Assembly (NCBI RefSeq): GCF_001314225.1
Contig: NZ_CP012698.1
Span: 62,001-126,000, forward strand
Length of the DNA: 64,000 nt
Direction: 5' to 3'
Origin: Microbacterium sp. No. 7
Lineage (GTDB): Bacteria > Actinomycetota > Actinomycetes > Actinomycetales > Microbacteriaceae
The notes under the pieces are model-generated. The model did not search any database. It was given only the letters and a program-made list of their open reading frames with translations, and had not been told where the DNA came from. Made by a program: the position numbers and the translations under genes. Of the stretch, positions 17,702 to 59,870 are shown piece by piece (position 1 is the stretch's first letter; each line of letters begins with the position of its first letter).

Positions 17702-19405
17702 TCAGCTGATCGCGAAAGGTAGCCGCCGAAGGGTCGTCGCCGACATGCCGGTGCTCTTGAACATGCGAGCGTGCGCGTACTGGATCTCTGGCAGCAGATC
17801 CATCCGGCCGATCGAGGTCAGAATGATTTCGTCAGCTTCGTCGGTAAGGTGGCGCAACTCGGGGACCGCGTAGCCGCCGACGTACTTGCCGGAGTTGAGA
17901 TCCCATGACCGAACATCGGGCAGCGCCTTCTCGATCCGCTTCCCCAAGTCGATCAGTGCGTCGCGGGTGGTCTGGTCGCAGCTGCGCAGCGAGAACGGGA
18001 TCGCGGACATGGTGCCCTTGGTGACGTTGAAGCAGTCGCCGGTGAAGGTCCACCACAGGAAGGCCAGTCGTGACGCCGCGACGGCGCTGGCAGCCAGCTG
18101 GTCGTCGCGGTGCTGGGTGAACAGCTTCCCTTCGTTCAGTGGCACGGTGGCATGGGTGGACTTTTCGTAGGTCACCGGCGGCACCGTATACGTGCTGAGG
18201 AAGTAGGTTGCGGTCTTCTTGAAGCCGACCGAGAAGTCGCTCACACGAACCAGCGATGCCTGCAGTGATCCCTTCGCCAGCAGTGTGTCCATGAGCTCGT
18301 ACATAGCGTCGCCACTCGATCGCATCCAATTGGGCGTCTTCGTGGTGTTCGGTCGCAATGCATATCGGAGCGTAGCCATCAGGTGGGGGCGGAACGGCTC
18401 GATCCAGCTGTGGGTGATTGTGGTGTGGATCTCTGACGCTTTCCCCTGCCCGGCAGCGGTGATTATGGTGCTGCGGACCTTGACCTGGAACAGTGCAGCA
18501 GGCCGCTCCTGGAAGGTGCTCACCCAGATCGCGCCGAATCGCTCGGTGTAGTACTTCCGCAGCGACTCGTCGCGATCGCCGAACTGGCTGCGGATCGGGA
18601 CGATCAGGCTCAGGCGCCCATCGTGGCGAGTGATCTGCGCGGATCTCTCACAGCACGATGCGTAGATGTCGTCTACGTCGTCGGTCCTGAAGCCGGTGAT
18701 GCGATAGCTGAGCTCGCGACGGTTTACATAGGGCGGGTTCCCGATCACGACGTCAAATCCGCCCTGCTCGAAGACCTCGGGGAACTCGACGAACCAGTGG
18801 AAGGGGTGGTGCGTCTCGACCCACGCCGTAAGCGGCTGGGGCACCATTGTCGCTGAGTGGTAGAGGTCATCGACATCTCGGCGGACCTCGTCGAGGAGAG
18901 CTACGAGCTCGCGCCGAACGTCGACGGATGATTCGTTGGTCTCTTGACGCTCCCGGAACGCGGAGTAGCGCTCCGAGATCCGCGCCGCAGACTTCTTGAC
19001 CTCGATGATTCGGTCGCTGGTAAACAGGGTGCCGCTGTCCTCCTCGAGCGAGTCCAGGGTGAGGGCACCTACGAGGGTGTTTCCCGCCTTGATGTTGAAA
19101 TCGAGGTCGGGGAGCGGTTCGAGATCCTTGCGGTCGTCGATGGATGCTACGAGTTTCAGGAAAAGTCGGAGCCGGGCAACCTCGACCGCTTCGCGCATGA
19201 TGTCGACGCCGTAGAGATTGCTGAGGGTGGCGTGCTTGAGGACGAAGTACTCGGTGTTGGCGTGTTTGGAGACGGTCTCGAGTAGGGCCATGCCCTCGGG
19301 GAATGACGTCGATCGGACGTGACGGTCCAGAGCGTCAAGCGTGGCGTCGTAGAGCGGCTGCAGCACCCGCAACCCGGCGAACAGGAAGGCTCCCGAGCCG
19401 CAGGT
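17702..19405 (-). pseudogene. C-terminal half of an Eco57I-like adenine methyltransferase
   Basis: About 567 residues are open from the left junction of the 35.7 kb element. The frame opens exactly at TCGSGAFLFAGLRVLQ, the S-adenosylmethionine motif I that normally reads DPTCGSGAF. Motif IV (DVVIGNPPY) and a long C-terminal target-recognition-type region follow. The missing N-terminal half, ending ...ALRVIDP, is at 55087-56586 on the same strand. Joined, they give ~1,067 residues, normal for this class. The first in-frame ATG lies at 19372, inside motif I, so this half alone lacks a complete cofactor site. Confidence 0.92.
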
Positions 19406-19437
19406 CGTTATGTGTACGTTCGGTCAGTGTCTCAACC
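19405..19437 (+). repeat. left terminal inverted repeat of the 35.7 kb element
   Basis: Reading inward, CGTTATGTGTACG is followed by TTCGGTCA and GTGTCTCA. Compared with the inward-reading right end, CGTT-ATG-G, TCGG and TGTCTCA line up with small gaps. The match is imperfect, as expected for tyrosine-recombinase elements. Confidence 0.5.
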
Positions 19438-19465
19438 ACTCACCCGATCGCACCCCTGGAGCACG

Positions 19466-20878
19466 ATGCACCTGCGTTTCGTAGACCACCGCCTCACCGC
19501 CACAGCCGACCTCGACGAGCGCATAGGCGACCTCTACTCGCGCGGCCGCCCACTACCCGAGGGGATGCCGATCCTTCTCGACGATGGTTGGCGCCCGGTT
19601 GAGCCGTGGCTGACGTACTTCCGAATCGTCGCAGCGTCGGCAGACCGAGCAACACTTCGCGCCTACGCATACGACGCACGGCGGTTCGCCGCTTTCCTCG
19701 ACGCACGGCGAACGGACGTGATCCATGCAACGAGTGACGACATCGTCGCATATCGCGAATGGCGGCTGAACGGCTCCGAGCGACCGGTTGCGCATACGAC
19801 GTGGCAGCGCGACGTCGTCGTCATTCGTGGGATCTACCAGCTGCTCACGCAAACCGGGCAGATCCAGCGTGAGCCGTGGATCACCATCGGGAAGTCGTCG
19901 CCACTCCGAACGCGTTGGACGAGTGAGCCGGACATACGACCGCTGACGCAATCGCAGTGGCGGACGTTCCGTGAGGTCGGGCTCGGCGGACGAACTGCGA
20001 GCGGCGACCTGGACGAAAGCTGGCGCGGTAGCACCAGCTTGCGCTCACAAGCGGGCGCCCAACTTGCGGTGACAACTGGGATGCGCCTCGGAGAGTTCTC
20101 AACTTTGCTCGATGTCGAAATTCCGTCGTCAATCGACAGCGGAGGCTCCCTCTTGCTCGAGGCATGCGCGAAGTATCAGAAGCGCCGCCGTGTCCATATT
20201 CCCCTCACGACCCTCCGTGCCGTCGACCTGTACCGCCAGACAGAGCGCCGCGCCGTCGTCCGCGCGTCGGCTGCCTCACTCTGGCGTCGTCGCGCGGAAC
20301 TCTTCATCGTTGATGAGATAGACATGTCGGCAGGCGTCGTGCGGGGACGAGTGGATGGCCGACGGTCGAGATGGCGGCTGCACCAGCTCCCTCCGCGCCT
20401 GCGACGAATTGCCGTCACGGAGCGGAACGAGGGACTGGAAGCGCTGGGCCTGTTCGTCGGCCGAGGCGGTTTGCCGATCAGTAGGCGGCAATGGCATGCC
20501 ACGTTCGAGGCAGCGAGCCGTCGCACGCTGGATCTCGCACAGGCAGAGATGGGCGGTCGGCGTGTCCGGATCACCCCGCACGATTTGCGCCACACATTCG
20601 CTGTCGTTCTCTTGAAGTCTCTGACCGAGGTCGCCCTCGCCCGCGAGGCTGAGCGACGAGCCGGCAACGTCGGACCGTCCACGCTCTCCGAGCACATCAG
20701 TATCAACCCGCGACTCACTGTCCAGCGGCTGCTCGGGCACTCGAATCCTGCGACGACGATGGTCTACCTGCGGTATGTGGAGGACACTGATGCGCTCATT
20801 CAGGACGTGTTCGAGAGCTGGAGCGACGAGGCCATGACGTTCGCAGACGCGGTCCTCGCTGATCGGAACGCCGCGTGA
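19466..20878 (+). CDS. tyrosine recombinase 1 of the element (TnpA-like)
   Basis: A 470-residue site-specific recombinase. The start is ATG 19466 with GGAG upstream; a longer frame that overlaps the methyltransferase fragment is rejected. An N-terminal SAM-like core-binding domain (residues ~40-150) precedes the catalytic domain: Arg in TTGMRLGE, HDLRHTF (HxxR), then LGHSNPATTMVYLRY with the His and the nucleophilic Tyr. All catalytic residues are present. Its stop overlaps the next start (GTGA). It probably catalyses excision and integration with its two partners. Confidence 0.88.
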   Translation: MHLRFVDHRLTATADLDERIGDLYSRGRPLPEGMPILLDDGWRPVEPWLTYFRIVAASADRATLRAYAYDARRFAAFLDARRTDVIHATSDDIVAYREWRLNGSERPVAHTTWQRDVVVIRGIYQLLTQTGQIQREPWITIGKSSPLRTRWTSEPDIRPLTQSQWRTFREVGLGGRTASGDLDESWRGSTSLRSQAGAQLAVTTGMRLGEFSTLLDVEIPSSIDSGGSLLLEACAKYQKRRRVHIPLTTLRAVDLYRQTERRAVVRASAASLWRRRAELFIVDEIDMSAGVVRGRVDGRRSRWRLHQLPPRLRRIAVTERNEGLEALGLFVGRGGLPISRRQWHATFEAASRRTLDLAQAEMGGRRVRITPHDLRHTFAVVLLKSLTEVALAREAERRAGNVGPSTLSEHISINPRLTVQRLLGHSNPATTMVYLRYVEDTDALIQDVFESWSDEAMTFADAVLADRNAA

Positions 20879-22683
20879 GCAACGTCGACCTCGCCCCGCG
20901 TCGGATGTCGTTCGTTCTGCCGACCACGAAGCTCGACGGAACGGTTGCCCCGCTCGACTTCGCGCACCCGATACTTGCCGCGGAGCTCTCCGATGCTTTG
21001 ATCGAAATGCGTCGAACGATTGGTCAGTCCGATGGCACCGCGTATCAATACCGGCGGGCTCTCATGAGTCTTCTGCGCGGCATGCCTGATGTGTGTCCGC
21101 GCACTGCGAGTTTGGCGTCGCCAGGTCTCGCCATCACCGACGCGTTCCACTTATGGGAGTCTGCGTTGGCTGGCAGTTACGCGCCCGAGAGCGCGATCCC
21201 GAACAGGTACGGCAGGCAGATCCGCGCTCTCGTCCGCGTCCACGCAGCCAACGGTCATGAGGTTAGCGAGGCCACGCTTCGTTGGGCCCAGGCGCGCGTT
21301 TTACACCAGGGCGGAGACTCCACGCCGCTGGATGAGTTCTCGAACGCGGAGCGCCTCGCCATACGTGACGCCTGCCGTGCCCGAATCCGCGACCTGGAGA
21401 CGCGTCTTGCGGTCGGACGTCGGATCCTTTTCACCGGCGAGGACCCCCGAGTCGCAGGATGGAACCGTGGCGCCGATGTGCTCTGGGGCGTCCGCCATCT
21501 CGGCCGACTTCCGGGTACATCGATAGAGGCTGATCTCGTCCGTGCGTGCGGTGCTGGCGTGCTCAGCGACTTCCACGCGGACTTCGCAGGTGAGAAGTCC
21601 ATGACCCACTCTGATGCTGGTCCGATCACGCGCCACCTGCTGACGCACCTCTATCCGACTAGTGAGGACCTCGTTGCGTTCCGCACGTTGCTGCAGTTAG
21701 AAAGCGGTGCGGCGCCGGAAGAGTGGTCGGGCGTGCGGCTCTCGGATATCGAGCGCACAACCGATTCCCTCGGCGTGAGACTCCGCAAGGCACGGGCGCA
21801 CCGGACTCGAACCGTGCGCTGCACCATCACCGAGTCGGGCAACGGATGGCGAGCTGGGGATCTCATCCTTCGACTGATCGCCGTGACCGAAGCAGCTCGG
21901 GAGGAAGCGAATGAGGTGGGAGCCCCGGACGCAGACTCCTTGTTCCTGACTGTGCACCGAACCACGTCCAGACATCTCGTCGCGCGCCAGGAGTCATTCT
22001 CTCGTCGTCCGTTCACGTCGCTCTTGACGTCGATCTCTCCTGAGATATCCAGGCCATACGACTCCCGTCGGCTGCGCAAGACAGTGAAGAGTGTTCGGGC
22101 AGCAGTGCTCCGCAGCGCAGACGCCGCGGCGGGAAACGACCACAGCATCGCCGTTTACCAACGCCACTACGCGCAGTCGACGACGGTGCACGTTCTGGCA
22201 GGCATCGCCGTCAACGCGGCGCAGCACCAGGTCTTCGATCGAGCACGAGGGCCACTCTTCGTCCATGCGGCAGCCAGCACAGTCGACGATGCTGCGGGCG
22301 ACCTCGCTGCTGCCGCCGCAGCCGAGCTGGCCTCGAGCACCACCGAGCACGGAATCAATGTGACTCAGTGCACGTCACCGTACGAATCACCCTTCACGCC
22401 AGCGGGCCGGCTCTGCGAGCACCGGCCGTCCATGTGCTTTGCGTGCCCGAATGCCATCGTGTTCGCCGACCACCTCCCGCGAGTCCTCGCGTACCGAGAG
22501 ATACTCCGCAATCACGAGAACGAGATGCCTCCAGCCCAGTTCGCGGCGGTACACGGCCAACAGCTGGTCAACGTCGAGCGCATTCTCCACGAGTTCTCCA
22601 CGACGGAGCTCGAGAATGCGCGGGCTGCGCACGAGACCGCCGCGGTCCATGTGCCACTCAGCCAGAGAGGAATCCACTTATGA
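20875..22683 (+). CDS. tyrosine recombinase 2 of the element, degenerate first Arg region
   Basis: A 602-residue protein. The catalytic part shows YDSRRLRKTVKS where HxLRKT is usual, then HSIAVYQRHYAQS with a candidate Tyr. The segment that should hold the first catalytic Arg reads LESGAAPEEWSGVRL, with no TGxRxxE. A Cys-rich tail follows (CTSPYESPFTPAGRLCEHRPSMCFACPN broken over residues ~495-525), a possible zinc site. It overlaps both neighbours by 4 bases. It may be a structural rather than catalytic subunit of a hetero-recombinase. Confidence 0.75.
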   Translation: MSNVDLAPRRMSFVLPTTKLDGTVAPLDFAHPILAAELSDALIEMRRTIGQSDGTAYQYRRALMSLLRGMPDVCPRTASLASPGLAITDAFHLWESALAGSYAPESAIPNRYGRQIRALVRVHAANGHEVSEATLRWAQARVLHQGGDSTPLDEFSNAERLAIRDACRARIRDLETRLAVGRRILFTGEDPRVAGWNRGADVLWGVRHLGRLPGTSIEADLVRACGAGVLSDFHADFAGEKSMTHSDAGPITRHLLTHLYPTSEDLVAFRTLLQLESGAAPEEWSGVRLSDIERTTDSLGVRLRKARAHRTRTVRCTITESGNGWRAGDLILRLIAVTEAAREEANEVGAPDADSLFLTVHRTTSRHLVARQESFSRRPFTSLLTSISPEISRPYDSRRLRKTVKSVRAAVLRSADAAAGNDHSIAVYQRHYAQSTTVHVLAGIAVNAAQHQVFDRARGPLFVHAAASTVDDAAGDLAAAAAAELASSTTEHGINVTQCTSPYESPFTPAGRLCEHRPSMCFACPNAIVFADHLPRVLAYREILRNHENEMPPAQFAAVHGQQLVNVERILHEFSTTELENARAAHETAAVHVPLSQRGIHL

Positions 22684-24788
22684 CCGTCGACCGCGGGCAC
22701 TCCGCCGAACGGTTGTCGCCTTCAGCGAGCGAGTACTGGGCAGGCGATACGGCGGTCGTCTCTGATCGCAAACTCGAACATGACTACCCGATCCCATTGT
22801 TCGGAAATGAGGATCGTTGGGAGCTCGGTGCGCTGGGGTGGAACCCGGCGGCCGGCCGACACTCCTCCGTTCTGCTGTTCGACTCGTTCAGCGGCGCGTG
22901 GAACCTTCGTGCTCGCGAACTCGCGATGGCACTTCTCAACCCTGTACACCCCGTGCTGCGCGATCAGATGATCTACCTGCGAGCAACGCCTGCTCACGTG
23001 AAGACGATTCGCTCGAAGCTCGAAGGCTTGAAAAGGTTCGCCGCGTGGCACGCCGAGAACCTCCCGGGCCATCCACTCCGCGATCTCGACCAGTCGCACC
23101 TCGACAGCTTCCTCACCGATGTCAAGAAGATGGGGATCCATTCGCGGACGAGGCAATCAGTCGATGCGGTCCGCGAACTCCACACATACGCGACAGTCCT
23201 CACCGGCGGCGGCGTTCTGTTTCGCCCGTGGGGTGAGATCACGACGATCGCGCTCAGCGGACGCAAGTCGAGCACCGAGCTGAGCACGCCGGTGATCCCG
23301 CCGCAGGTTTGGTGGCCGTTGCTTCGGGCGTGCTGGCAGTACATCGATGTGTTCTCGCACGACATCTTCGCGGCCGCAGCAGAGTGGTCGGCGCTCGACC
23401 GACCCAGAGGCCAGCGCACGAGAGTTCAACATCCCGAAGAGGCTCTCGCGAGGTGGATCTCGAGGCCAGGGAGTGCAGTGCCGATGCACCGCATGACGTA
23501 TGGGCGATTCCGCGAGGGCGAGATTCATTGGACGCTCTTGTCCCTGCTCGTGTCAGACGGTCACAGCAAGCAGTTCTTCGCCGAACTGGACCGGCCTGAC
23601 ATCGTGCGCCGACGTCAGGACGTCATTGAGGCGATCGCCGCTGGCACGCTCTCGACCGTCCGCGGGGGTCTCACGACACCGGCAACAGCGGTCGAACGCT
23701 CCGATGGATCCGTCGGACCATGGATCGACGGATTCGACCCGGCGACGATTCGCGCTCAGCTGAAGCTCCTCCGCAACGCGTGCTACGTCTTCTGCGCGGC
23801 TCTCACGATGATGCGCGACTCGGAGCTGCTGAGCATCAAGAAGGGGGCGCTCACGACGTCGTACGGCGCACCTGCTGTCACATCCCAGCTCCGAAAAGGT
23901 CGACGCGGAACACAGCGACGCAACTGGTGGATCATCGAACCCGTCGCGCAGGCAATCGTCGTCGCCGAAAAACTCGCTCTCGGTGACGACGTTTTCGGCT
24001 CTGTTCGCCGTGAACACCGAGCGCAAGACGGAGCCGGTAGGTTCGATCGACATAGTGAGCTGAAACAGTTCATCTCGCAACTCAATGGTCAGGACCTCGA
24101 CGCCGGTCTCGACATGATCCCCGCATTTCATCTCGCTCCGCACATGTTCCGGCGGACGATGGCCGTGATCACCGCGCAACAGCCAGACGGCGAGATTGCC
24201 CTCGGCATCCAGCTCAAGCACGCTGCTCGGCGCGCTGTCGCGAACGGCACGACCTCCGGGTACGCGAGCGAGACACCTGAATGGGCCGCGGAGTTCGAGC
24301 ATGAGCTCCAAGAAGCCGTCGCGTCGCGGTTGGTCGGCGCCTGGTCTTCTCACCGTGACCACGAGATGAAGCTCGCGGGCGCGGGCGCTCAGCGGTTCCG
24401 AGACGAACTCAAGAAGATTGATGCAGTCGCGAGCAACGCGGTCAAAGTCGGCGACGAACGCACGCTGCGCACGCTCCTCCGCGATCGGTTCAGCACGCTC
24501 CGGTGGGGAACCGTCAATCACTGCCTCGGCATCCCCGACCAGGCAGCGTGCTTGAAAGGTCTGCCAGCCGACGCAATCGCCGGAGGTGCAGTCATGCCCA
24601 ATCGGTGCCAGCCCACCACGTGTGGCAACTCCGTCGTCACGGAGGAGCACGCGTCGATCTGGATCGCGGAGGAACGCGACCTTGTCGCGAAGCTTCGCGA
24701 CCGAAAGATGGCGGCACACAATCGCGAACAGCTCGAAGCCGAGCTCGAGGATGTTCGCCGAGTCACGAGGAAGTTCACGGATGCCTGA
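22680..24788 (+). CDS. tyrosine recombinase 3 of the element (TnpB-like)
   Basis: A 702-residue protein starting at ATG 22680 (ATGA overlap). The catalytic residues are recognisable: Arg in MMRDSELLSI, HMFRRTM (HxxRR), a later LKHAAR and Tyr in TTSGYASE. A Cys-containing stretch near the C-terminus (CLGIPDQAACLKG ... NRCQPTTCGNS) resembles the zinc-like tail of Tn554 TnpB proteins. The length exceeds Tn554 TnpB (~630 residues). Forms one operon with the other recombinases and overlaps the tnpC-like start by 8 bases. Confidence 0.82.
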   Translation: MTVDRGHSAERLSPSASEYWAGDTAVVSDRKLEHDYPIPLFGNEDRWELGALGWNPAAGRHSSVLLFDSFSGAWNLRARELAMALLNPVHPVLRDQMIYLRATPAHVKTIRSKLEGLKRFAAWHAENLPGHPLRDLDQSHLDSFLTDVKKMGIHSRTRQSVDAVRELHTYATVLTGGGVLFRPWGEITTIALSGRKSSTELSTPVIPPQVWWPLLRACWQYIDVFSHDIFAAAAEWSALDRPRGQRTRVQHPEEALARWISRPGSAVPMHRMTYGRFREGEIHWTLLSLLVSDGHSKQFFAELDRPDIVRRRQDVIEAIAAGTLSTVRGGLTTPATAVERSDGSVGPWIDGFDPATIRAQLKLLRNACYVFCAALTMMRDSELLSIKKGALTTSYGAPAVTSQLRKGRRGTQRRNWWIIEPVAQAIVVAEKLALGDDVFGSVRREHRAQDGAGRFDRHSELKQFISQLNGQDLDAGLDMIPAFHLAPHMFRRTMAVITAQQPDGEIALGIQLKHAARRAVANGTTSGYASETPEWAAEFEHELQEAVASRLVGAWSSHRDHEMKLAGAGAQRFRDELKKIDAVASNAVKVGDERTLRTLLRDRFSTLRWGTVNHCLGIPDQAACLKGLPADAIAGGAVMPNRCQPTTCGNSVVTEEHASIWIAEERDLVAKLRDRKMAAHNREQLEAELEDVRRVTRKFTDA

Positions 24789-25197
24789 GATCACTGCCGG
24801 GACAGAACGCAAGCTACGCGACGCGATGGAGCGGCTGCTCAGTGGGGTGGCAGTCCGAACCGACGGCCGCATCAACAAGGAGAACCTTTATCGCGAAGCC
24901 GGCGTCAGCCGCGCCACCATGAACCGTGCGACCGCAGTCATGGACGAGTGGGCTCGGCGCGTCGACGGGACCCAGCCCCGTGATCGCGAGATCGAGTCGT
25001 TGCGAAGTTCGCTTGCTGCCCGTACCGCCGAGATCAAGAAGCTCCGTGAGCGACTGAGCGACCTCGAAGCACATCTGACGATCGCCGCCACCACCGTCGC
25101 CGAGCTGCACGTAGAGAATCAACTCCTGCGGGGCGACGACCCGACCCGTAACGTCACCCCGATGAAGCGCCCGGCGGGTTCAGTCGGCAGCCGGTGA
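24781..25197 (+). CDS. TnpC-like small DNA-binding protein (DUF6262-like)
   Basis: A 138-residue protein with an N-terminal helix-turn-helix (NKENLYREAGVSRATMNRA) and a long coiled coil (residues ~62-110, ending HVENQLLRG). This is the pattern of the small third protein of Tn554-type elements, which sets orientation and frequency of transposition. It starts inside the end of recombinase 3. ATG 24781 is taken; earlier frames lie within that gene. Confidence 0.75.
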   Translation: MPEITAGTERKLRDAMERLLSGVAVRTDGRINKENLYREAGVSRATMNRATAVMDEWARRVDGTQPRDREIESLRSSLAARTAEIKKLRERLSDLEAHLTIAATTVAELHVENQLLRGDDPTRNVTPMKRPAGSVGSR

Positions 25198-25205
25198 TTC
25201 CTGCT

Positions 25206-25847
25206 TCAGCACCATTTCGGAGGGCGCGTATAGGTGCTCGCTGCGACGCTGAAGGTCTCGGGAAGGAGTGCCTGGCGGATCTTGTCACGCCCGATCTGTG
25301 ACGACGCAGGCATCAGCTGCTTGAGCTCGCTCGAGAATCGCTTGGGCGGGAAAGCAGCGCCGATGAACATGTGCGGGCGGAACTGCTTGGCCGCTCTGAC
25401 TGCGGGAGCAAGATCGCTGTCGGCGCTGATGATCAGCGCCGAGTCCATAGCGCTCGAGGCAGCGTCGCCGACGAGGGCAACCGCGATGTTGACGTCGGTT
25501 TCTTTCTCCTCGTGCGCAATACGCGTAGCGCGACAGTTGAAGCACGTCACCGTCTTCGCCTGGTACCTGCCCTGCGTGACGCTGAATACGTTGGGGTGAC
25601 GCGCGGCGACCGCAGCCTGATGGTAGGCCTGGCGACTCGCCGCCCCCGCATCGCCCAACACAGGCGCGGTGAAGTATTTCACCGCGACAATGTGGCTGCG
25701 CGGGCGGAGGCTCTGCGCGAGTGCGACGAAGTCTATCCAGAGCGTCGAGCGGCCGAACTTGTCGTGCATGCCGTGATAGAAGTTGAAGCCGTCGATGTAG
25801 ACGATGAGGCGCTCGTGCGGTGGTCCAGGTACGGGTAAAGCTGGCAA
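25206..25847 (-). CDS. NYN-domain (PIN-like) ribonuclease
   Basis: A 213-residue protein. Conserved acidic positions of NYN/LabA nucleases are present: VYIDGFNFYHG near residue 18, KETDVNIAVAL near residue 117, and ISADSDLAPAV near residue 138. A CFNC motif at ~102 precedes them. It starts with a TTG with GGAG 7 bases upstream. It is convergent with the recombinase operon and divergent from a small-RNA-like transcript. In a defence-rich element it may act as an RNase effector or antitoxin-linked toxin; no partner gene is obvious. Confidence 0.82.
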   Translation of the reverse strand: MPALPVPGPPHERLIVYIDGFNFYHGMHDKFGRSTLWIDFVALAQSLRPRSHIVAVKYFTAPVLGDAGAASRQAYHQAAVAARHPNVFSVTQGRYQAKTVTCFNCRATRIAHEEKETDVNIAVALVGDAASSAMDSALIISADSDLAPAVRAAKQFRPHMFIGAAFPPKRFSSELKQLMPASSQIGRDKIRQALLPETFSVAASTYTRPPKWC

Positions 25848-25894
25848 CAGACGACTCCAAATCGATACGCGAGGTGCTCACCTTCCTACCAGCG

Positions 25895-25980
25895 ATCGTG
25901 TGTATAGTGTGGATACACCCCGCCCGGTTGTTCATCCCAACCGTGGCCCGACGCCCTCCCTCGGGAGGGCGTCTTTGTTT
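25895..25980 (+). ncRNA. candidate small RNA with promoter-like box and terminator
   Basis: TATAGT at 25903-25908 sits inside a short inverted repeat (GTGTAT...ATACAC, 25899-25917). About 10 bases on, GGTTG and CAACC form a small hairpin (25926-25942). A perfect rho-independent-type stem follows: GACGCCCTCC (25950-25959) with GGAGGGCGTC (25964-25973) and TTTGTTT. Together this predicts a ~65-base transcript without a reading frame. No clear -35 box is visible, so it may instead be a leader for the HTH gene or a terminator for the NYN region. Confidence 0.4.
25950..25980 (+). terminator. rho-independent-type terminator
   Basis: A perfect 10-bp G+C-rich stem with a 4-base loop (CTCG) is followed by TTTGTTT. 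It is oriented to stop plus-strand transcription just upstream of the HTH regulator gene. Confidence 0.8.
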
Positions 25981-51457: not shown

Positions 51458-51512
51458 ATACCCGACCGGACCGACATCAGATTCGCCAAGCCACGAAACA
51501 GGAGCAGACAGG

Positions 51513-51597: not shown

Positions 51598-51901
51598 TGA
51601 AGCGCCCCGGGTTTCGTGGAGGCTCGGTTATCTGGAACCGGCTCCGACGGGAACCTGTTCTCCAACGTAGCTGACGGGCTTGTGGGATGCCCAGTGGGCG
51701 GCCTCGAACTCGGCGGGCGGGACGTGTCCGATCTCGCCGTGCAGGCGCCGGTTGTACCAGTCGACGTATTCGGCGACCGCGATCTCGACGTCGCGGACCG
51801 ACGCCCACCCGCCCTTGGGGCGCATGACCGGGTTGCGGATGCACTCGGCCTTGAACCGCGAGTTCAGCGCCTCGGCCATCGCGTTGAAGCTCCTATATTT
51901 G

Positions 51902-52972
51902 TCAACTCCCGATTTCGCCGGTCGTGGGGTGCGCTTTGACGAGGTGGTAGACCTCGCGGATCACATAGCGCTTGAGGCAGCGGATGATGTCTCGCTTGCT
52001 TCGGCCCTCAGCGGTGCGTCGGGCGACGTACGCGATGGTCGGCTCATGAAACCGCATCCTCACGATCACTGTCCGATAGATCGCGGCGTTGAGCTGGCGG
52101 TGGCCTCCGTGGTTGATGCGATGCTTCCCGCTGCTCATGCCCGAGCCTGTTGGGACGGGGGCGATGCCAGCGAGCTTGGCGAATGCGGCTTCGGAGTGGA
52201 TCCGTTCCGGGTTGTCTCCGGCGACTATGAGGATTTCTGCGGCGGTGTCGACTCCGATCCCGAACTGCTCGAGCAGCTGCGGGGCGGTGCTGCGCACGAG
52301 GGCCTCGATGAGTTCTTCGAGTTCCTTGGCTTCCGCGTCCAGGGCAAGCCAGCGTCGCGCCAAAGTGCGGACCGAGTGGCGCAGCGCGTCGTCGGGAGTG
52401 TCCAGGTTCCGCGGTCGTGAGGCAGCGAGGTGTCGGGCGAGCTTCGGGCGTGACATTCTGTTCGTCTCGCGGCGCATCTCGTCCGTGCCGTGGACGAGCA
52501 TCGCTTTCATCATGATCATCGTCGAGGAGCGGTTCACGACCGCGGAATCATGCACAACTTTCAACTGGCGGATCATCTCGACGGCGCCGTCGGCGGTTTT
52601 CGGAATCGCGGTCGCGAATCCGGCGAGCACGCTTCGCGCGGCGTTCTCTGCGTCGAGAGTGTCGGACTTGCCGTTCGCTCGCCGAAGCCGACGGTCAGGC
52701 CTGCCCGCTTCGACCACCTTGATGTCGTGCCGACGGAGGAACGATGTCAGGGTGGCCCCGTAGGACCCGGTGCCTTCGATCCCGAACGCGAGGATCCGAC
52801 CGAACCCTTCCGCCCAAGCGAGTAGCTGCCGAAACCCACCGGTGTCGGTGGGGATCGTGAGCGTCGAGAGGATGCCACCGACCGTGTCCATCACGGCTGC
52901 GACGTGGATGTGTTTGTGCGTGTCGACGCCGACCACAATATGGCCCGATCGCGTCGAGGTGAGATCTGTCAT
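51902..52972 (-). CDS. IS110-family DEDD transposase
   Basis: A 356-residue recombinase. The N-terminal RuvC-like DEDD domain has VVGVDTHKHIHV (Asp), FGIEGTGSYG (Glu) and KSDTLDAENAAR (Asp-Asp). The C-terminal Tnp20 domain has LIVAGDNPERIHSEAAFAKLAG and SGKHRINHGGHRQLN with its catalytic-type Ser. It appears full length. Confidence 0.92.
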   Translation of the reverse strand: MTDLTSTRSGHIVVGVDTHKHIHVAAVMDTVGGILSTLTIPTDTGGFRQLLAWAEGFGRILAFGIEGTGSYGATLTSFLRRHDIKVVEAGRPDRRLRRANGKSDTLDAENAARSVLAGFATAIPKTADGAVEMIRQLKVVHDSAVVNRSSTMIMMKAMLVHGTDEMRRETNRMSRPKLARHLAASRPRNLDTPDDALRHSVRTLARRWLALDAEAKELEELIEALVRSTAPQLLEQFGIGVDTAAEILIVAGDNPERIHSEAAFAKLAGIAPVPTGSGMSSGKHRINHGGHRQLNAAIYRTVIVRMRFHEPTIAYVARRTAEGRSKRDIIRCLKRYVIREVYHLVKAHPTTGEIGS

Positions 52973-53230
52973 CGTGTCCTGTCCTTCTGCCGGTTAGCGT
53001 GGAATCACGTTGTCGCCGGCGGGTGGACAGGACTGTCACGGGGACGCTCTCAAAGTCTGCTCCAGGCTCCTATCAGGTCACGCCCGACCGGCGGCAGCGC
53101 TCACTGCAAGCCCGGCCGGACGGTCGACAGATCAACGCAAAGGCACCATTCGGGCCGATCGTAAGCAAGGGTCAGACCGCGCCGGCCGGGACTACCGAAT
53201 CAGTCTCGACCCGGCAGAAACAAACTGACA
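52973..53230 (-). ncRNA. IS110 non-coding end, expected to encode the bridge RNA
   Basis: 258 bases upstream of the transposase and inside the element have no reading frame of their own. They contain several GC-rich inverted segments (for example GTCCTGTCC near 52976 with GGACAGGAC near 53021). In IS110-group elements this left-end region is transcribed as the structured bridge RNA that pairs with target and donor. The assignment rests on that established arrangement. Confidence 0.5.
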
Positions 53231-53357
53231 GTCGTAGCTGTCGCCGACCGTTCCGACGGACGCGACCGCGTCGGCTTCGGCGAGTCGCTCGGTGTAGCGA
53301 ATCGCACGGTATTGACTGGGCTCAACCGGTGGAAGCAACACCTGATCGGAGGGTGTT

Positions 53358-53571
53358 GTGGGAAGACCATCGAACTGGATGAAGGAAGTGACCGGGCGAG
53401 CGCCGATGCGGTCACCCGGCGCACCATCGCACCCGCGAGTGAAGGAGCGTGAGTTCTGGACGAAGATCAGCACCGGCTTGCTCCCGACGGAGGCGGGCGT
53501 CGCGATCGGCGTGGCTCCAGTCTTGGGGTCGCGGTGGTTCCGACAATCAGGCGGTATGTCACCGTATTCAT
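53358..53571 (+). pseudogene. N-terminal fragment of an IS30-family transposase
   Basis: GTG 53358 with GGAGGG upstream begins GRPSNWMKEVTGRAPMRSPG, and VLGSRWFRQSGGM follows, the start pattern of actinobacterial IS30 transposases. The frame is cut at 53572 by the end of IS copy 3 and its remainder is not in the window. An adjacent deletion is therefore likely. Confidence 0.7.
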
Positions 53572-53587
53572 TGGGCCGCCCCCTTCG

Positions 53588-54400
53588 TTAGGTCCAGGCG
53601 ATCTGTGAGTCGTCGGTTTCCATTCGATGGGTGCACTCCCGAGCGTAGTCGGCGGGGGCGATATAGCCGAGCGAGGAGTGCCGGCGGTGATGGTTGTACT
53701 CGTTCTTCCAGTCGCCGATCACGACCTGGGCGTGCAGGAGTGAGTAGAAGCTGTTGATGTTGAGGCACTCGTCGCGGATCCGGCTGTTGAACGACTCGAC
53801 GTACCCGTTGCGCCACGGAGAGCCGGGCGGGATGTAGGACAGCCCGGTGCGGGTGCCGGCCCAGTCGGCCATCGCTTCGCTGATGAACTCCGGTCCGTTG
53901 TCCGATCTGAGCACAGCCGGGGCGCCGCGCACGGCGACGAGGTCCTCGAGGTGGGCGGTGAGGCGGTCGGCGGTGATCGACCGTTCGGTGAGCCCGCCGA
54001 TGCACTCACGGGTGTGCTCGTCGACGATCGAGCAGATCTTGATCGGGCGGCCCTGCTCGTCCGCGTCGAACTGGAAGTCGACGGCCCACACCACGTTCGG
54101 TGCGTCTGCTGTAGGCGGGCCGACGGTGGAGGACCCGACGCGTTTGCGGCGACGGCGTTGCGGGACCCGGAGCCCTTCGTCGCGCCAGAGGCGTTGGATC
54201 TTCTTGTGGTTCACGGCCCAGCCCTCGGCGCGGGCGTCGTGGTACGCGCGTCGGTACCCGTAGCGGGGGTGGCTCTTCGCCCAGGCGCGCAGCCAGTCCC
54301 TGAGCGCCCGGTCCGGGTCCGCGACGGTGTCGCCCTTGCGCGGGCGCCGGTAGGCGGAGCGTGAGAGCCCGACCAGACGGCACGCCATCCGTTCGCTCAC
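53588..54400 (-). CDS. IS copy 3 OrfB transposase
   Basis: 270 residues, same translation as copies 1 and 2, with DDE residues intact. With the complete orfA and both ends present, this copy could supply transposase for the composite transposon. Confidence 0.92.
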   Translation of the reverse strand: MSERMACRLVGLSRSAYRRPRKGDTVADPDRALRDWLRAWAKSHPRYGYRRAYHDARAEGWAVNHKKIQRLWRDEGLRVPQRRRRKRVGSSTVGPPTADAPNVVWAVDFQFDADEQGRPIKICSIVDEHTRECIGGLTERSITADRLTAHLEDLVAVRGAPAVLRSDNGPEFISEAMADWAGTRTGLSYIPPGSPWRNGYVESFNSRIRDECLNINSFYSLLHAQVVIGDWKNEYNHHRRHSSLGYIAPADYARECTHRMETDDSQIAWT

Positions 54401-54450
54401 CTGCAGCTTGCGCTTGAGGTGAGCGACGGCGGCGCGGCGTCTGTCCGGGC

Positions 54451-54735
54451 TTAGAAGTTTCCCTCAGCCAGCTCCTTGAGCGCCGCCTTCTCCAGCTCCG
54501 CCTCCGCGAGCAGCCGCTTCAAGGTTGCGTTCTGCTTCTCGAGCTCCTTGAGCCGTTTCGCGTCGTCGGCCTTGAGCCCGCCGTACTGGTTCCGCCACCG
54601 GTAATACGTCTGCTCGGAGACTCCGAGGTCCCGGCACACCGCCGCGATGTCGGCGCCGTCGGCGAGCATCCTGTCGGCCTGCCCGAGCTTGCGGACGACC
54701 TGCTCCGGGGTGTGCCGCTTCCTGCTGTTCGTCAT
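54451..54735 (-). CDS. IS copy 3 OrfA
   Basis: 94 residues, identical in translation to copy 1 OrfA, with helix-turn-helix and leucine zipper. The GGGAAAC slippery heptamer precedes its stop. Confidence 0.92.
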   Translation of the reverse strand: MTNSRKRHTPEQVVRKLGQADRMLADGADIAAVCRDLGVSEQTYYRWRNQYGGLKADDAKRLKELEKQNATLKRLLAEAELEKAALKELAEGNF

Positions 54736-55011
54736 GATCTGACCAGTCTCCCTGCCCGCGACCGCGGACGACAGGACGACTCACATAACAACCGGACCTA
54801 CGAAACGGGGTCAGCCCAGTGCACTTCAAGCTCACGCCCGAATGGCTAGATAGCCCAGAGAATCTGCGCTGGGCGCACCGCCGTGTTTGCAATAAGGCTG
54901 CTGAGCTGAGTCTCGATCAGACACGGTTGCACCTAATCGAACGCGGCATCCTGACCGCAGACGTCCCCTGACACTGAACCGCCGATAGGTTGAGAACGAA
55001 TCAGGCGATGT

Positions 55012-56586
55012 CTACGCGGCCAGGCCATCTTGCTCCAGCGCGTTCCGACCGTTGTCTCGTGAGACATCCGACTTGCGCATAAACGCGGGGTCGATGACGC
55101 GCAGGGCAGTGAGGATCTGCCACGCGGCCAGTGCCTGCTCCGGGGCGTTCAGCTGGTCGATCGTGTCGACCGCGAGCTGCTCGAGGTCGATGTTCTCGGT
55201 GACGGCTCGGTCGACGGAGTCGATGTGCCCGGACTTGGCGGCGGCGAGCAGCTTGGCGTGTTCGTTGCGCCGCCGGTCGGTTTCCCACCAGGTCTCTCCC
55301 GGGAGGCCGAGATTCTCGCTGGCGGGACCGTCCCACAGGGGGCGGCGCCGAGCCATGCGCTGTGCCTCAATCTCGGTCGGCAGCGGCTGGTCGATACCCC
55401 AGGCCAGGCTGGACCAGATGTATCGTTCGGGAGCTTCACGGACGTAGCGCCACGGATTGACGCCGGTGCGGGCGATCAGCCGTTCGAGGAACACGGGCAC
55501 GATGGCATTGCTGGCCATGAAGTGCGTGACGTCTTCCTTGGTGTAGTACGCGCCCTTGTCGGAGCCGCGGTTGTCGAGGCTTTCCTTCTCGTTGACGAAC
55601 TGCTCGAAGATGTAGCCGAGCACGTCGGGGTTGATCTCGTTCTGGGACGCGGTTGGACGATCATCGAGGTGCCACTGGAAGCGGTCGAACAGGTCGAAGA
55701 TTGAGGTGAAGATCTCGTCGGGGATCTCGATGGTGTTGTCGTGCTCGAGCTTGTGCTCGGCGAAGATTCCGCCGTTGATGTAGGGCACGTCGCCGACCAG
55801 GCCGGCGACGACGTCGTTGGGATACTGGCGCGACTCCACCTTTTGGCCCAGCCCCTCGTGGAACATCGGGAGCAGGAAGTCGCGATAGAACCCGTAGAAC
55901 TGGCCCTCGCCAACCAGATCACGCAGCTGGTTGAGGCGATTCCGCAGATAGTCGGTGTCCTGATCCATGAACGACTTCTTCTGCATGAAGTAGATGAACA
56001 TCAGCCGGTTCATCATCAGCGAGGAGTACCACTCCCGCTCGCTGTCGTCGGGGATGCCCTGGATGGCGACGGTGAGAGCGCGCTGTCTGCGGACGAACTG
56101 GTCGTAGAACCGTTTGGTGACGATGTCGGCGTCGAAAGCCGCGCGCATCTTGCGCAGTACATCGATGAGGGTGGGGCTCTCGTTGATCTTGATCTCGATG
56201 GTGCCGAGCCGCTGATTGAGGGCCTCATTGGTGGTGCCAACGGTGTGCCGATGCAGTGCCAAACGAGGTTGGCCGACACCCTCGGCATCTGCCGATTGCA
56301 GCCACCGCCACTCCTGGCGGGTGTGGTCGGAGAAGATGAGCAGTCGTGCGTCGGAGACTTTGCGCACGTGCTGGTCGATCAGTCGCTGTGTGCGCGCATC
56401 TGGAAGGTCGTTGCAGAGCCAGACCCGCAGACCCGAGTAGCCGGCGACCTGCTGCAGCGTGTACGTCTGCTCGTCGACGGTGACGCGCAGCGGTGCGAGG
56501 TCTGGTTTGTCCCAGCCGAGTTCCTCGAGAAACAGCGTCTGAAAATCACCCGAGTTGACGAGCTTCATCCGGGTTGATGCACTCAT
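55012..56586 (-). pseudogene. N-terminal half of the Eco57I-like adenine methyltransferase
   Basis: Starts at ATG 56586 overlapping the helicase stop (ATGA). About 500 codons are native: an N-terminal region with GYSGLRVWLCNDLPDA and LLIFSDHTRQEWRW, a helical middle, and DKGAYYTKEDVTHFM (~residue 350), typical just before the methylase core. ALRVIDP ends the native part at 55087. The next 25 codons (AFMRKSDVSRDNG...) come from the right end of the 35.7 kb element. The C-terminal half with motifs I and IV is at 17702-19405. The fragment lacks every catalytic methylase motif. Confidence 0.92.
55055..55087 (-). repeat. right terminal inverted repeat of the 35.7 kb element
   Basis: Reading inward on the minus strand, CGCGTTTATGCGCAAG is followed by TCGGATGTCTCA. 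A short palindrome, TCTCGTGAGA, lies just inside. These bases also extend the truncated methyltransferase frame by a few dozen foreign codons up to a stop at 55012. Confidence 0.5.
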
Positions 56587-59500
56587 GACACCACCCCCAT
56601 GGAGCACACGATGTGGATCGGATCGGCTGCCGCGATGTCGATCACAAGCCGCTTGTCGCGATGGAGCAGCACGAGTAGGTCGGCCAGGTCGTCGACGTCG
56701 CTGCGCGCGGCCAGCGCGGTCGTGAATCGCTTTTCGGCCTCCTTGGTGAGAGGACGTGTGAAGATCGCTTCGAGCGCGTCGGCGACGTCGCCCTTCCCGG
56801 CTACCAGGGCGCCGTTGAGACGGTTCCATACCCGCTTGCGGACGCCGCTGAGGCGGCCCTCGATATTGCCGCTCTGGATGAGGTTTCCCTGCGCCATCTG
56901 CACCAGGAGCGGAAAGTGGTCCGCGCGGGCGGCCAGCGCCGTGGTGTCGATGTCACAGCGGAACCGGCTGAGCGCCTCCTGCCCGGTGAGCAGACGGATG
57001 CCCTCTGCCGACCCGAACCCGAACCCGTCGTTGTCGTTCTCGGTGCGGACGTAACACACCACGCCGTCGACGTCCCGGTCGGACAGTGACGGCCTGGTCG
57101 CGTAAACGAGATCCGGCAGTGCTTTGACGCGGTCAGCGAGTTCGGGGTGCTCCTGCTCGGCGGAGCTCCACACTTCGTAAGCGAGGCTCGATGCGTCGAC
57201 CTCGTTGTCGATCTCGTTGTCGTCGAGCTTGCCCTTATAAAGATCCTCGATGATCTTGACTTCGTCCTCGGAGCCGAAGAACTGTTCGTCTGATCCGAAT
57301 ACCTCGGCGTTGGCATGGAGGCGGTCTGCGATGCGCTGGCGGAGATTCAGGACCTGCTCCACGCCGTCGTGCCACAGCGAGTAGATGATGACCTCGTCGG
57401 ATTTCTGGCCGACGCGGTCGACGCGGCCTGCCCGCTGGATCAGCCGGATGATCGCCCACGGCAGGTCGTAGTTGACCACAATGTGCGCGTCCTGCAGGTT
57501 CTGTCCTTCTGAGAGCACGTCGGTCGCGACGAGCACTCGGTACTCGGCTGAGGGGTCGATGATCTTGTTGAGCTCGATGTCGGTGAGCGTCGCGGAGCCA
57601 AGCATGTTGGACAGCGGGGCGAATCTGCGGGCGACGTCGGTCGGGTTGTTGGTGTCGCCGCTGGCGATCCCCACCCGGTCGATGCCCGCGGCTTTGAGCG
57701 CCTCGGCGACGTAGTTCGCCGTGTCCTTGTACTCGGTGAAGATCAGCACCTTCTCGTCGGGGTGTGTCTCGGTCAGCAACTTGAGGATCTCGGCCAGCTT
57801 TGAGTCCGCGTTCGTCGTCCACGCGCCGAACTCATTCAGCAAACCGGTGAGCGTCGTCGTGTCGGCCTTGAGGTCGTCGAGCAGCTTCGGGGTGAAGACG
57901 GAGGGGCGGATCCACCGCACCGACTTCGGTGTCGATGCACGCAGCGCCTCATACTCGCTCTGGCCGTCGCCGGATGCCGGAGGTTCGATGCCCTCGTAAT
58001 CTTCCTCGGCGTCGTCGTCGCTTTCGGACGAGGTGAGCATGACATCCAGCAGCGTGCCCAGCGGGAGGTCGAGGTCGTTCTGGACGGCGTAGATGTACAG
58101 CTGGTTGCGGGCGATGTGGCGCTGCAGGGACACCATGAACGAGTACCCGCAGCTGGACAGCCGCTTATACAGCCCGCTGCGGACGAACCCGATCAGGTGG
58201 CCGCTACCGCGCTCGAAGCGCTCGACGATCACCTTCTCCTCGGGGGTGAGGTCGAGCGATTTCCGGAGATACGCGGACAGGTTGTAGCGCGGCAGGTTCA
58301 GGTTGTCGATCGCGTCGAGGGTCTCGACGGACTCCATCTTGGCTGCTGGGTCGTGCTCGCCGAACGAGTGCACCAGCGGTTTGGGTACGCGGGCCGGGAA
58401 TGTGAACCTCGTACCGTTCGCAAAGGTGAGGTACTCCTTGCCGTGCTCGTCGACCAGTGCGTAGTTCTTGCGGACGAACGAGCGGGTGCGGCGGATGAGG
58501 TGCTCGCTCATCAGCCGCTTCCAGTCATCGGGCTCCTCGCTGCGCTTGAACGCCTCGAGCGTGCTTGTCTTGCCGTCGAGCTTCTCGGCGAAGCGGTCGT
58601 CCAGCGACATCGCGACCACGGGTTGCAGTCCGAGATCGTCGTCGGGGTCGATGTACAGCCCCAGCTGATTCCCGACGTCCTTGAAGCGGATGTTGTACGG
58701 CGTCGCGGTGAGCAGCAGCACTCGGCAGTCGTAGTTGCGGATGTAGTCGTAGAGCGCCCGATAGTCCTGACGGGTGTCGTTGCGCAGCGTGTGCGATTCG
58801 TCGACGATCACGAACTGGTAGCGGCCGAGGTTGGGCAGGCGCTTCGCCGCCATGCTGTACGGGACGACGGTGGCATTCAGGGCGTAGCGCTCTTTGTACT
58901 CCTCCCACATCTTCACAAGGTTGACGGGGCACACGATGAGCGTGCGGTAGCCCTCGGCCTCGTTGAGCATCATCGCGGTGGCTGTTGCGGTGATCGTCTT
59001 GCCGAGGCCGACAACGTCGCCGAGCATGGCGCCGCCCTTGGTCATGATGCGACGGGACAGCGTCTTCACGGCGCTCTCCTGGTACTCGAGCAGCTGGTCG
59101 CGCATCGACGGCGGCAGGGTGTACTCGATGAGCCCCTCGCGCACATCGCGGGAGAGATGCCAGCAGACCTTGAGGTAGACCTCGTAGGGGGTCAGCGGCG
59201 TCTCGCTCGCCCAGGACTCGTCGATGATCTCAATGAGATCGGCGGTGACGTCGATGGAAAACTTGTCGTTCCACCGATCCTCGAACCAGCTGTCAAGTTT
59301 TGCGGCTCCGTCCGAGTCGACGACGTCGACGTTGAGCTCGTAGTTGTTCGCGAGGCCGGCGATCGTGAGATTGGATGAGCCGACGTAGGCGACGATCGGT
59401 GTGATCTTGTCGTCCCGGTGGCAAATGTACGTCTTGCCGTGGAGGGGCCGGCGAGTGAACAGCTTGATCGCGACTCGGCCGTCCGCCAGCTGCGCGCGAA

Positions 59501-59870
59501 GTTCCCGAATGGTGGCCTCGTCCTGCGCGGTGGGGGCGCCGCGCATTAGCTGCTGTCGGAATTTGAGCTTTGCCTGCTGCTGACGCGCCTGCGCGGTCTT
59601 GCGGTCGATCACGTCCTCAAGTGGTCCACCCTCGAGTGTGCGCTGCAGGTGGTCGAGCACCTGTTCCTCTGGCTCGCCATGAACCATGCCGATCAGCACT
59701 CGAGCGATGGGTGAGCCGCCAGAATCGCGTCCTTGGACGACGTCACCAAACAGTTTCCAGCCGCGAATGTTGAAGTACCCAACAGCGGCGTCGATGCGGT
59801 TGGACTCGGAAAGCGTCTCGACGAGGTGACCACCGAGGTTGAGCTCGATGTTGTCGAAGATACGGGTCAC
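56583..59870 (-). CDS. PLD-nuclease/SNF2-helicase fusion protein
   Basis: A 1,095-residue protein starting at GTG 59870 (AGGAGC 3 bases before). The N-terminal phospholipase-D-like domain has RRPLHGKTYICHRD (HxK, ~residue 145) and VAYVGSSNLTIAGL. The SNF2 motor shows GDVVGLGKTITA (~residue 285), VDESHTLR (~residue 360), then VLVATDVLSEGQNLQ and IQRAGRVDRVGQ (~residues 755-790). Such helicases pair with Eco57I-like methyltransferases as restriction-type systems; here the partner follows with an ATGA overlap but is split by the 35.7 kb element. Restriction activity without its methylase would be harmful, so this gene may be silent or inactive. Confidence 0.9.
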   Translation of the reverse strand: MTRIFDNIELNLGGHLVETLSESNRIDAAVGYFNIRGWKLFGDVVQGRDSGGSPIARVLIGMVHGEPEEQVLDHLQRTLEGGPLEDVIDRKTAQARQQQAKLKFRQQLMRGAPTAQDEATIRELRAQLADGRVAIKLFTRRPLHGKTYICHRDDKITPIVAYVGSSNLTIAGLANNYELNVDVVDSDGAAKLDSWFEDRWNDKFSIDVTADLIEIIDESWASETPLTPYEVYLKVCWHLSRDVREGLIEYTLPPSMRDQLLEYQESAVKTLSRRIMTKGGAMLGDVVGLGKTITATATAMMLNEAEGYRTLIVCPVNLVKMWEEYKERYALNATVVPYSMAAKRLPNLGRYQFVIVDESHTLRNDTRQDYRALYDYIRNYDCRVLLLTATPYNIRFKDVGNQLGLYIDPDDDLGLQPVVAMSLDDRFAEKLDGKTSTLEAFKRSEEPDDWKRLMSEHLIRRTRSFVRKNYALVDEHGKEYLTFANGTRFTFPARVPKPLVHSFGEHDPAAKMESVETLDAIDNLNLPRYNLSAYLRKSLDLTPEEKVIVERFERGSGHLIGFVRSGLYKRLSSCGYSFMVSLQRHIARNQLYIYAVQNDLDLPLGTLLDVMLTSSESDDDAEEDYEGIEPPASGDGQSEYEALRASTPKSVRWIRPSVFTPKLLDDLKADTTTLTGLLNEFGAWTTNADSKLAEILKLLTETHPDEKVLIFTEYKDTANYVAEALKAAGIDRVGIASGDTNNPTDVARRFAPLSNMLGSATLTDIELNKIIDPSAEYRVLVATDVLSEGQNLQDAHIVVNYDLPWAIIRLIQRAGRVDRVGQKSDEVIIYSLWHDGVEQVLNLRQRIADRLHANAEVFGSDEQFFGSEDEVKIIEDLYKGKLDDNEIDNEVDASSLAYEVWSSAEQEHPELADRVKALPDLVYATRPSLSDRDVDGVVCYVRTENDNDGFGFGSAEGIRLLTGQEALSRFRCDIDTTALAARADHFPLLVQMAQGNLIQSGNIEGRLSGVRKRVWNRLNGALVAGKGDVADALEAIFTRPLTKEAEKRFTTALAARSDVDDLADLLVLLHRDKRLVIDIAAADPIHIVCSMGVVS

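Follow-up and report, generated by a model that had tools for sequence, protein, structure and literature searches.

The stretch of DNA analysed here (the window: 64,000 nucleotides of Microbacterium sp. No. 7, contig NZ_CP012698.1, positions 62,001 to 126,000 of the forward strand, numbered below from its first letter) holds a type IIG-like restriction-methylase gene that is split by a long inserted element at the codons of motif I, the S-adenosylmethionine (SAM)-binding motif. The N-terminal half of this gene (55087..56586, minus strand) is an open frame of 500 residues ending ...ALRVIDP, with the codon of its last Pro at 55087-55089, and the C-terminal half (17702..19405, minus strand) is a frame of 567 residues opening with TCGSGAFLF, with the Thr codon at 19403-19405. 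The open reading frames place both halves on the minus strand in the order that the first-pass annotation of this DNA had described, and its estimate of about 1,067 residues for the rejoined gene becomes exact (500 + 567) when translation starts from the ATG at 56586. This ATG overlaps the stop codon of an upstream gene for a PLD-domain SNF2-type helicase (56583..59903, minus strand; PF13091, PF00176, PF00271; PADLOC C3a139 HKD+Snf2).

That the two frames are the parts of one methylase gene, as had been proposed, was borne out by two alignments. Against the PADLOC profile PDLC03628 (1100 positions), the N-terminal half matches positions 9-501 (E 1.2e-104) and the C-terminal half positions 500-1026 (E 9.6e-61), so that the two matches adjoin; the C-terminal half also matches PF07669 (Eco57I). 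One long chain, a methylase core spanning motif I and a match to positions 9-1026 of the 1100 in the type IIG profile together mark the rejoined product as a predicted type IIG enzyme. In addition, an intact homologue from the same genus (locus L068 of genome G946; a frame of 1,080 residues inside the locus and of 1,097 in the genus search) aligns through residues 3-499 to the N-terminal half at 37% identity and through residues 501-1073 to the C-terminal half at 41%, the residue between the two aligned parts being the Pro that was trimmed from the N-terminal query, and its DNA at the motif I spot reads GAC CCG ACC TGC GGC. The failure of the halves to align end to end, which would have told against a single gene, thus did not occur. 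This homologue, 37-41% identical and not near-identical, is the one uninterrupted copy known for the window methylase; a search of plasmids for the empty site of this gene yielded no match for the N-terminal half and, on the C-terminal side, a match of 80.7% over 42% of the query in two records.

The host genome (4.83 Mb in three contigs) contains the recombinase gene of the element twice, once in the window, which lies on the 135 kb contig C2, and once on the 4.6 Mb contig C1; judging by size and gene content, C2 is probably a plasmid and C1 probably the chromosome. The C1 copy matches window positions 19383-55101 at 99.972% over 35,719 bp including the target edges, and all of its mismatches fall at or below 19406 or at or above 55090, meaning that 19407-55089 is identical base for base. 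Its target is motif I of a different, small methylase, with GTG CTT GAG CC-C before the element and C-GCT TGT GGC TCG GGA AAC TTC after it (LEP followed by ACGSGNF). In another genome of the genus, G820, this target gene is uninterrupted, with one flank matching at 99.86% (702 bp), the other at 99.61% (516 bp), and a single base between the two flank matches; that base is C, as is the variable base beside both ends of the element on C1. The empty site therefore indicates that the insertion added 35,681 bp, with a target duplication of at most one ambiguous base, and a duplication beyond one base of uncertain side was rejected.

In the window, the inserted length of 35,681 bp consists of the element body (19407..55086, 35,680 bp) plus a single further base that may belong to either side. 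Read on the minus strand, the left junction (19398..19412) shows the element end CATAAC (19412-19407), a variable base at 19406 and then the target bases ACC TGC with GG of the next codon, and the right junction (55078..55092) shows the target bases GAC CC, a variable base at 55087 and the element end GCGTTTATG. The deletion of 19406-55087 that had been proposed to restore the gene consequently removes one base too many. An assignment of the left base to the third position of the target's Pro codon and of the right base to the element was also considered, and is decided neither by the ten junction pairs described below nor by the G820 site. The claim that everything between the two halves is one insertion is upheld by the identical C1 copy and the empty site in G820.

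Three insertion sequence (IS) copies lie inside the element: copy 1 (34247..35496, plus strand), which is read from its two frames as IS3-type and pairs with copy 3 as an inverted repeat of 1,250 bp, with one mismatch; copy 2 (41786..42883, minus strand; 1,098 bp matched); and copy 3 (53569..54818, minus strand), which ends 268 bp from the right end. Insertion sequences can rearrange DNA, and their presence lends some colour to the explanation that two unrelated methylase fragments were paired here by chance or by IS-driven rearrangement, with motif I at the edges by coincidence. To this explanation we assign practically no weight, as the halves abut both in one profile and in one intact homologue, an identical element sits in another split methylase whose empty site is known, and elements of 20.7-21.4 kb in three relatives (G855, G932 and G1065), which do not have the extra right-hand part of the window element, lie at the same codon boundary. 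Chance pairing is ruled out by PDLC03628, L068, the C1 copy and, for that second copy, the G820 site, and the IS copies are ruled out as the cause of the split by the junctions that the shorter relatives share. Because both host copies carry the IS identically, the IS insertions are older than the copying between plasmid and chromosome; of the dated series of events that the first-pass annotation had read from this locus, this order stands, and the dating is relative only.

A survey of 366 congeneric genomes for GinA-like recombinases at least 70% identical to that of the window yielded 11 places, including the two in the host. One of these, L085, is unreadable since its contig starts at the element's first base. 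At all ten readable left junctions the element enters motif I at one and the same codon boundary, immediately behind the Pro codon (Thr in L091). The targets are of four kinds: the type IIG gene of the window, small N6-methylase genes (C1 and L089 of G855, 64% identical to one another), HsdM genes (L084, L086, L087 and L088) and MmeI genes (L083, L090 and L091). The left-end layout is common to the ten, L091 having CATAAG in place of CATAAC, and the opposite end carries the other methylase half in every case, nine times on one contig; in G938 the two ends are on different contigs, which are presumed to pair. Pfam domains HsdM_N, N6_Mtase and MmeI were found on target halves, the target kinds of L086-L088 and L091 being assigned by DNA identity (82-95%). 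Three of the insertions were also seen, by position, as L040 (Microbacterium schleiferi), L041 (Microbacteriaceae bacterium PS02066) and L042 (a plasmid of M. paraoxydans), corresponding to L084, L083 and L090, respectively. As in the window, the target halves abut in their profiles, at 3-192 and 191-489 of 491 in PDLC03021 for the HsdM of L040 and at 3-368 and 368-909 of 912 in PDLC03598 for the MmeI of L042. On plasmid pYJNG, the MmeI gene is intact and reads DPACGCGNF at the site where its relatives are split, and the DNA of its C-terminal part is 96.3% identical to split L083 and 91.6% to split L090. The suggestion that motif I of adenine methylases serves as an attachment site, made in the first pass from a single locus, is therefore supported by ten of ten readable junctions, that of the C1 copy included, and by the G820 empty site. 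Beside the right ends of two MmeI insertions, L074 and L119, TGC or GCC stands in place of GCG, and in each case this triplet repeats the target's own second codon past the break; these altered bases may be traces of strand exchange, or may be due to chance.

Near-identical operons are found in different targets. The 5.8 kb operon region of G855, whose target is a small N6-methylase gene, shares 99.1% identity with its counterparts in G1065, G1081 and L040, all of which lie in HsdM genes; the operon regions of G932 (HsdM) and L041 (MmeI) are 95.9% identical; and among L084, L086 and L087 the identity of the operons is 99.9% or more, against 88-95% for the HsdM flanks. Such near-identical operons with diverged flanks or different targets are most simply read as separate insertions. 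A recombinase tree was built from 31 rows, 29 of them different; the C1 copy was left out of it as identical to the window, and L045 was dropped for too few residues. Its ten rows from motif I insertions group in a single clade with support of 96/93. One of these ten rows, lying outside the other nine, is from a plasmid of Mycolicibacterium vanbaalenii, where a recombinase 43-44% identical accompanies a type ISP enzyme gene split at FTGTGTF.

At the DNA level, the ten target sites share only the bases.T.GA..C..C....GG....G.....TT., which are the fixed codon positions for a hydrophobic residue followed by [DE]-P-x-x-G-x-[GA]-x-F (in G938, Thr for Pro). Among the 585,000 strand-bases of 18 loci this pattern was found twice, both times as FEPAAGDGNF, a methylase-like sequence in the two copies of an island from another genus, G509, which is described below. 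That so few bases are common to the targets, and that restriction genes are in general dispensable, would be in keeping with a broad or weak target choice in which insertions into methylases are merely those that survive or are seen. We consider this very improbable, as dispensability leaves unexplained why ten of ten junctions fall at one codon boundary in unlike methylases. The recombinases probably read more than the shared bases. Within the target, CC and GG are seven bases apart, a spacing that resembles the staggered cuts of 6-7 bases proposed for GInt elements (PMC5385486).

Four genes form an operon at the left end of the element. The first encodes a GinA-like tyrosine recombinase (19424..20878, plus strand; PF00589, E 1.3e-11) in which the catalytic residues R-K-H-R-H-Y are present and for which the start codon is not fixed; it is followed by a GinB-like, degenerate tyrosine recombinase (20875..22683, plus strand), a GinC-like tyrosine recombinase with R-K-H-R-H-Y present (22680..24788, plus strand) and a GinD-like small protein of 138 amino acids without a Pfam family (24781..25197, plus strand). 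The ginABCD order with overlapping genes is found in the window, L042 and L043, and the GinA open frame starts within about 20 bases of the left end, with the cargo behind it. By this layout, the region is a GInt/Tn6571-type island. GinB and GinC have no match of their own in Pfam or NCBIfam, and a few GinC homologues carry PF00589 or PF02899. The predicted fold of GinB (pLDDT 81) has Cre, XerH and lambda Int as its best Foldseek matches (E 0.018-0.035, probability 0.98-0.99), and that of GinC (pLDDT 80) has XerH and Tn1549 Int (E 0.006-0.007, probability 1.00 and 0.91). The earlier description of three tyrosine recombinase genes leading the insertion holds, with the qualification that the middle one, GinB, can be recognised solely from weakly matching folds and an incomplete catalytic set.

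The Tn554 family combines two tyrosine recombinases with TnpC and targets radA; the window element likewise pairs tyrosine recombinases with a small TnpC-type helper, and differs in its target and in having three recombinase-like genes with one small gene. The closest counterpart is GInt/Tn6571, described as a site-specific element with a four-gene operon at one end, regarded as its defining feature, and 2.5 to 70 kb of cargo, of which several may occur per genome (PMC5385486). In that description, GinD is similar to TnpC, all four genes are needed for excision and integration, a circular intermediate is formed, and imperfect direct repeats of 10-17 nt flank the element; the targets named are the start of an ABC transporter gene, the ends of ssb and the end of a ribonucleotide reductase gene, which its authors consider probably not wholly inactivated (PMC5385486). 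The window element is like these in its three recombinase-like genes and small protein at one end with cargo behind, and unlike them in that its clade targets one catalytic motif in several unlike methylases; no word starting with "methyl" or "Actinobacteria" occurs in the main text of PMC5385486. No clear repeat of 10-17 nt is visible at the motif I junctions, and one imperfect repeat of 12 nt was seen by eye at the G509 island.

Three further groups of elements share some of these properties. GInts of E. coli, found at several hotspots that are delimited by the core genes on either side, resemble the window element in carrying defence genes; the sections of that paper drawn on here name no methylase motif as a target (PMC10121019). 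Strand-biased circularizing integrative elements require several integrase-like genes and a small protein for recombination, and are unlike the window element in that they were found only in Gammaproteobacteria and have distinct protein clusters, the main text of their description containing neither "methyl" nor "hsdM" (PMC10214605). Streptococcal integrative and conjugative elements with serine-integrase triplets insert in hsdM, and in the text available are like the window element in the site-specific disruption of a type I methylase gene and in having three recombinases; they are unlike it in that the integrases are of the serine type and their targets are several unrelated genes (hsdM, mutT, traG), with no motif shared across methylase families (PMC4701971). 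Insertion into hsdM by serine-integrase triplets and defence-carrying GInts are thus known already, and the motif I target rule is apparently new, as no description of one catalytic motif across methylase families as an attachment site was found in searches of open-licence PMC papers on methylase targets, GInts and Tn554.

Taken together, the window very probably holds a GInt-type island that carries the Hma defence system, lies in a plasmid-borne methylase gene, recognises the DNA of motif I and moves among unlike methylases. In the mechanism that we propose, the recombinases would bring the island circle to a motif I site, and strand exchange would take place near the Pro codon, within the seven bases between CC and GG, leaving the methylase in two pieces cut at its SAM-binding motif. 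Because the enzyme needs the motif, targets would stay available, and because the motif is shared, one recombinase set would serve many genes; the element would in this way move among IIG, HsdM, MmeI and small N6-methylase genes, and a distant relative into a type ISP gene. The circular intermediate, the place of strand exchange, DNA as the thing that is read, the inactivation of the methylase and any advantage gained by disabling restriction are our inferences from the sequences. Integrases as a rule keep to a single attachment site, in one gene or transfer RNA; here, nearly the same operon uses one motif in four kinds of methylase, or five with the Mycolicibacterium relative. Insertion sites thereby become predictable by rule, some "broken" restriction genes are accounted for, the way in which a three-recombinase machine chooses its target is opened to direct tests, and the loss of one defence gene is coupled to the gain of another system in a single event.

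Several observations weigh against this interpretation or narrow it. The movement of the element is read from sequences alone, and the assignment to GInt is by operon layout, the published Gin proteins being known to us from their description. In that description, the residues RHRHY are present in GinA and GinB and the first Arg is missing in GinC (PMC5385486), whereas here GinA and GinC are complete and it is GinB that lacks the first Arg. The fold matches of GinB and GinC are weak, none being at E 0.001 or better. The variable base is the same at both ends in five of the ten insertions and different in the other five, which leaves the crossover point unfixed, and one right junction of the ten, in G938, reads GAC AC and not GAC CC. 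The shared-base pattern would be expected by chance 0.16 times per 64 kb and about 12 times in the host genome, so that these bases cannot by themselves make up the recognition signal. For the Mycolicibacterium element, a search for the right end found nothing, and the recombinase tree has long branches among several distant rows. Finally, motif I as the target of the whole GinA family was rejected, as distant relatives are not seen there: in a test of the motif pattern within about 1 kb of left flank, a methylase motif stood at the left junction in none of 12 loci from the genus (L092-L103), none of 11 from the class (L104-L114) and none of three from the order (L005-L007). Pattern matches away from the junction in L093, L094 and L112 were judged spurious by eye, and no motif I frame was seen in L005-L012. 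The family search (L048-L054) gave a methylase motif at the left junction in two of seven loci, both motif IV, and of the 158 plasmid records with GinA matches, two of the ten examined (H1 and H2, among H1-H9 and H13) are in motif I by their end pattern.

Behind the operon, the insert holds a second defence system, Hma, which the first-pass annotation had not reported. HmaA, an SNF2-type helicase (28295..31948, plus strand; PDLC00659, 1293.7 bits), HmaB, a DNA-adenine methylase (31909..34254, plus strand; PDLC00660), and HmaC, an AAA+ ATPase with DUF499 and HEPN_Swt1 (36036..39425, plus strand; PDLC00662, E 1.4e-262), lie side by side in the window and in G855, which identifies the system in both. 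They are preceded by a frame of 213 amino acids from the open reading frame list (25206..25847, minus strand), for which the gene at the corresponding position of the G855 element, and not the window frame itself, gave a match to PADLOC HEC-09, and followed by an OLD-like ATPase (39494..41512, plus strand; PADLOC Old, E 6.8e-26; PF13175). The smallest elements, those of G855, G932 and G1065, contain, besides the operon, a handful of small genes and four large ones, the latter being in G855 by their profiles HmaA, HmaB, HmaC and the OLD-like ATPase; the window has the gene order of G855 plus 13.5 kb more at the right. This extra part contains an IS110-type transposase and IS copies 2 and 3, and between these two copies it carries two P-type ATPases (45321-47501 and 49097-51457, plus strand) and an alcohol-dehydrogenase-like gene (47827-49014, plus strand). 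Hma is assigned in G932, G1065, G1081 and L041 by gene order and DNA similarity, and in L042 by annotation as helicase, DUF1156 and DUF499, where two annotated genes together make up the HmaB part. The neighbours of the small N6 methylase match HEC-05 and pieces of the IIG profile.

Type IIG, MmeI and ISP enzymes combine methylation and restriction in one chain, and type I restriction needs HsdM. In four of the five target kinds restriction would thus fall together with the methylase, and the cell should survive. With Hma genes in the window, G855, G932, G1065, G1081, L041 and L042, this would agree with an adaptation in which the element disables a resident restriction system that would cut its DNA and substitutes its own Hma. 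Such an adaptation is possible, though we regard it as rather unlikely: plain recognition of a conserved, widely available sequence gives the same target choice, the fitness gain is conjectural, HmaB is cut by an IS in the host, and HmaA is interrupted in G1081. The HmaB interruption is present in both island copies (34247-35496 in the window and its equivalent on C1), and the cut-short frame matches positions 8-805 of the 967 in its profile, against 8-957 in G855; going by these sequences, Hma may be non-working in this host. In the G1081 element, about 20 kb (10560-30820) is inserted in HmaA, the rest being 99.96-99.98% identical to the G1065 element. When the G855 element is compared with that of G1065, the middle of HmaB (13381-14129) loses similarity and the rest is 88-93% identical, as if a recognition part had been exchanged.

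A split that is itself regulatory, with the two pieces forming a working two-part methylase or with excision restoring the gene, was also weighed. Both halves are free of stops and frameshifts, and GInts have been reported to excise as circles, one of them with an outward promoter (PMC5385486). The SAM-binding motif is nevertheless divided by the break, translation of the C-terminal frame could start at the earliest from a TTG at residue 12, behind motif I, and the open frame of the N-terminal half continues for 24 foreign codons into the element. On this evidence a regulatory role is improbable, and an island that disrupts its target at motif I is the preferred reading.

Junctions at motif IV come from G509, a genome of the same family and another genus, which encodes a recombinase 29% identical and carries two GInt-like islands alike at 99.98% over 11,462 bp (L136:3825-15286, with the matching copy in L138/L139). 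Each island splits a methyltransferase gene at NPPF: one copy lies in an HsdM gene at NPPF/PPY, with the halves matching N6_Mtase at 2-138 and 133-299 of 311, and the other in a gene for a DUF7059/MTS-domain methyltransferase. The split motif is on the same strand as the recombinase. We take the NPPF/Y site in these targets to be motif IV of the same enzyme superfamily. These two copies from one genome suggest, on thin evidence, that catalytic motifs have been used as targets more than once. A wider proposal is that islands evolved, at least twice, recombinases that read the DNA imprint of a catalytic methyltransferase motif (I in one case, IV in the other), thereby gaining many interchangeable targets that are hard to mutate away, removing resident restriction and installing their own defence; we put this forward tentatively, leaning somewhat towards doubt.

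Related pieces of the window methylase were observed in other genomes of the genus. At the final bases of contig 307 of G995 (L058), a C-terminal half 94% identical to that of the window stops at the contig end exactly at motif I, as if the assembly had been broken by an island copy; G995 has no right-end pattern, and GinA is absent among the matches listed for this genome. In nine genomes (L059-L067), an open frame of 476 codons is 83% identical to residues 213-566 of the C-terminal half and matches this part only, which means that the rear part of the window methylase also occurs with a different front part.

Outside the island, the host contig has features of its own. A near-palindrome of 21 bp, TTGTGTATCTGACATGCACAA, occurs 11 times with at most two mismatches, all on C2 (76800 to 134150) and in a single orientation, with none on the other contigs of the host and none in the island. 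Two copies fall in the window (14800-14820 and 62725-62745), together with a partial copy in the opposite direction at 60057-60077; the repeat may be an operator of the plasmid or may serve in its replication or partition. At 1361-10824, genes of conjugation type (AAA_10, M23 peptidase and FtsK/SpoIIIE) fit a plasmid backbone.

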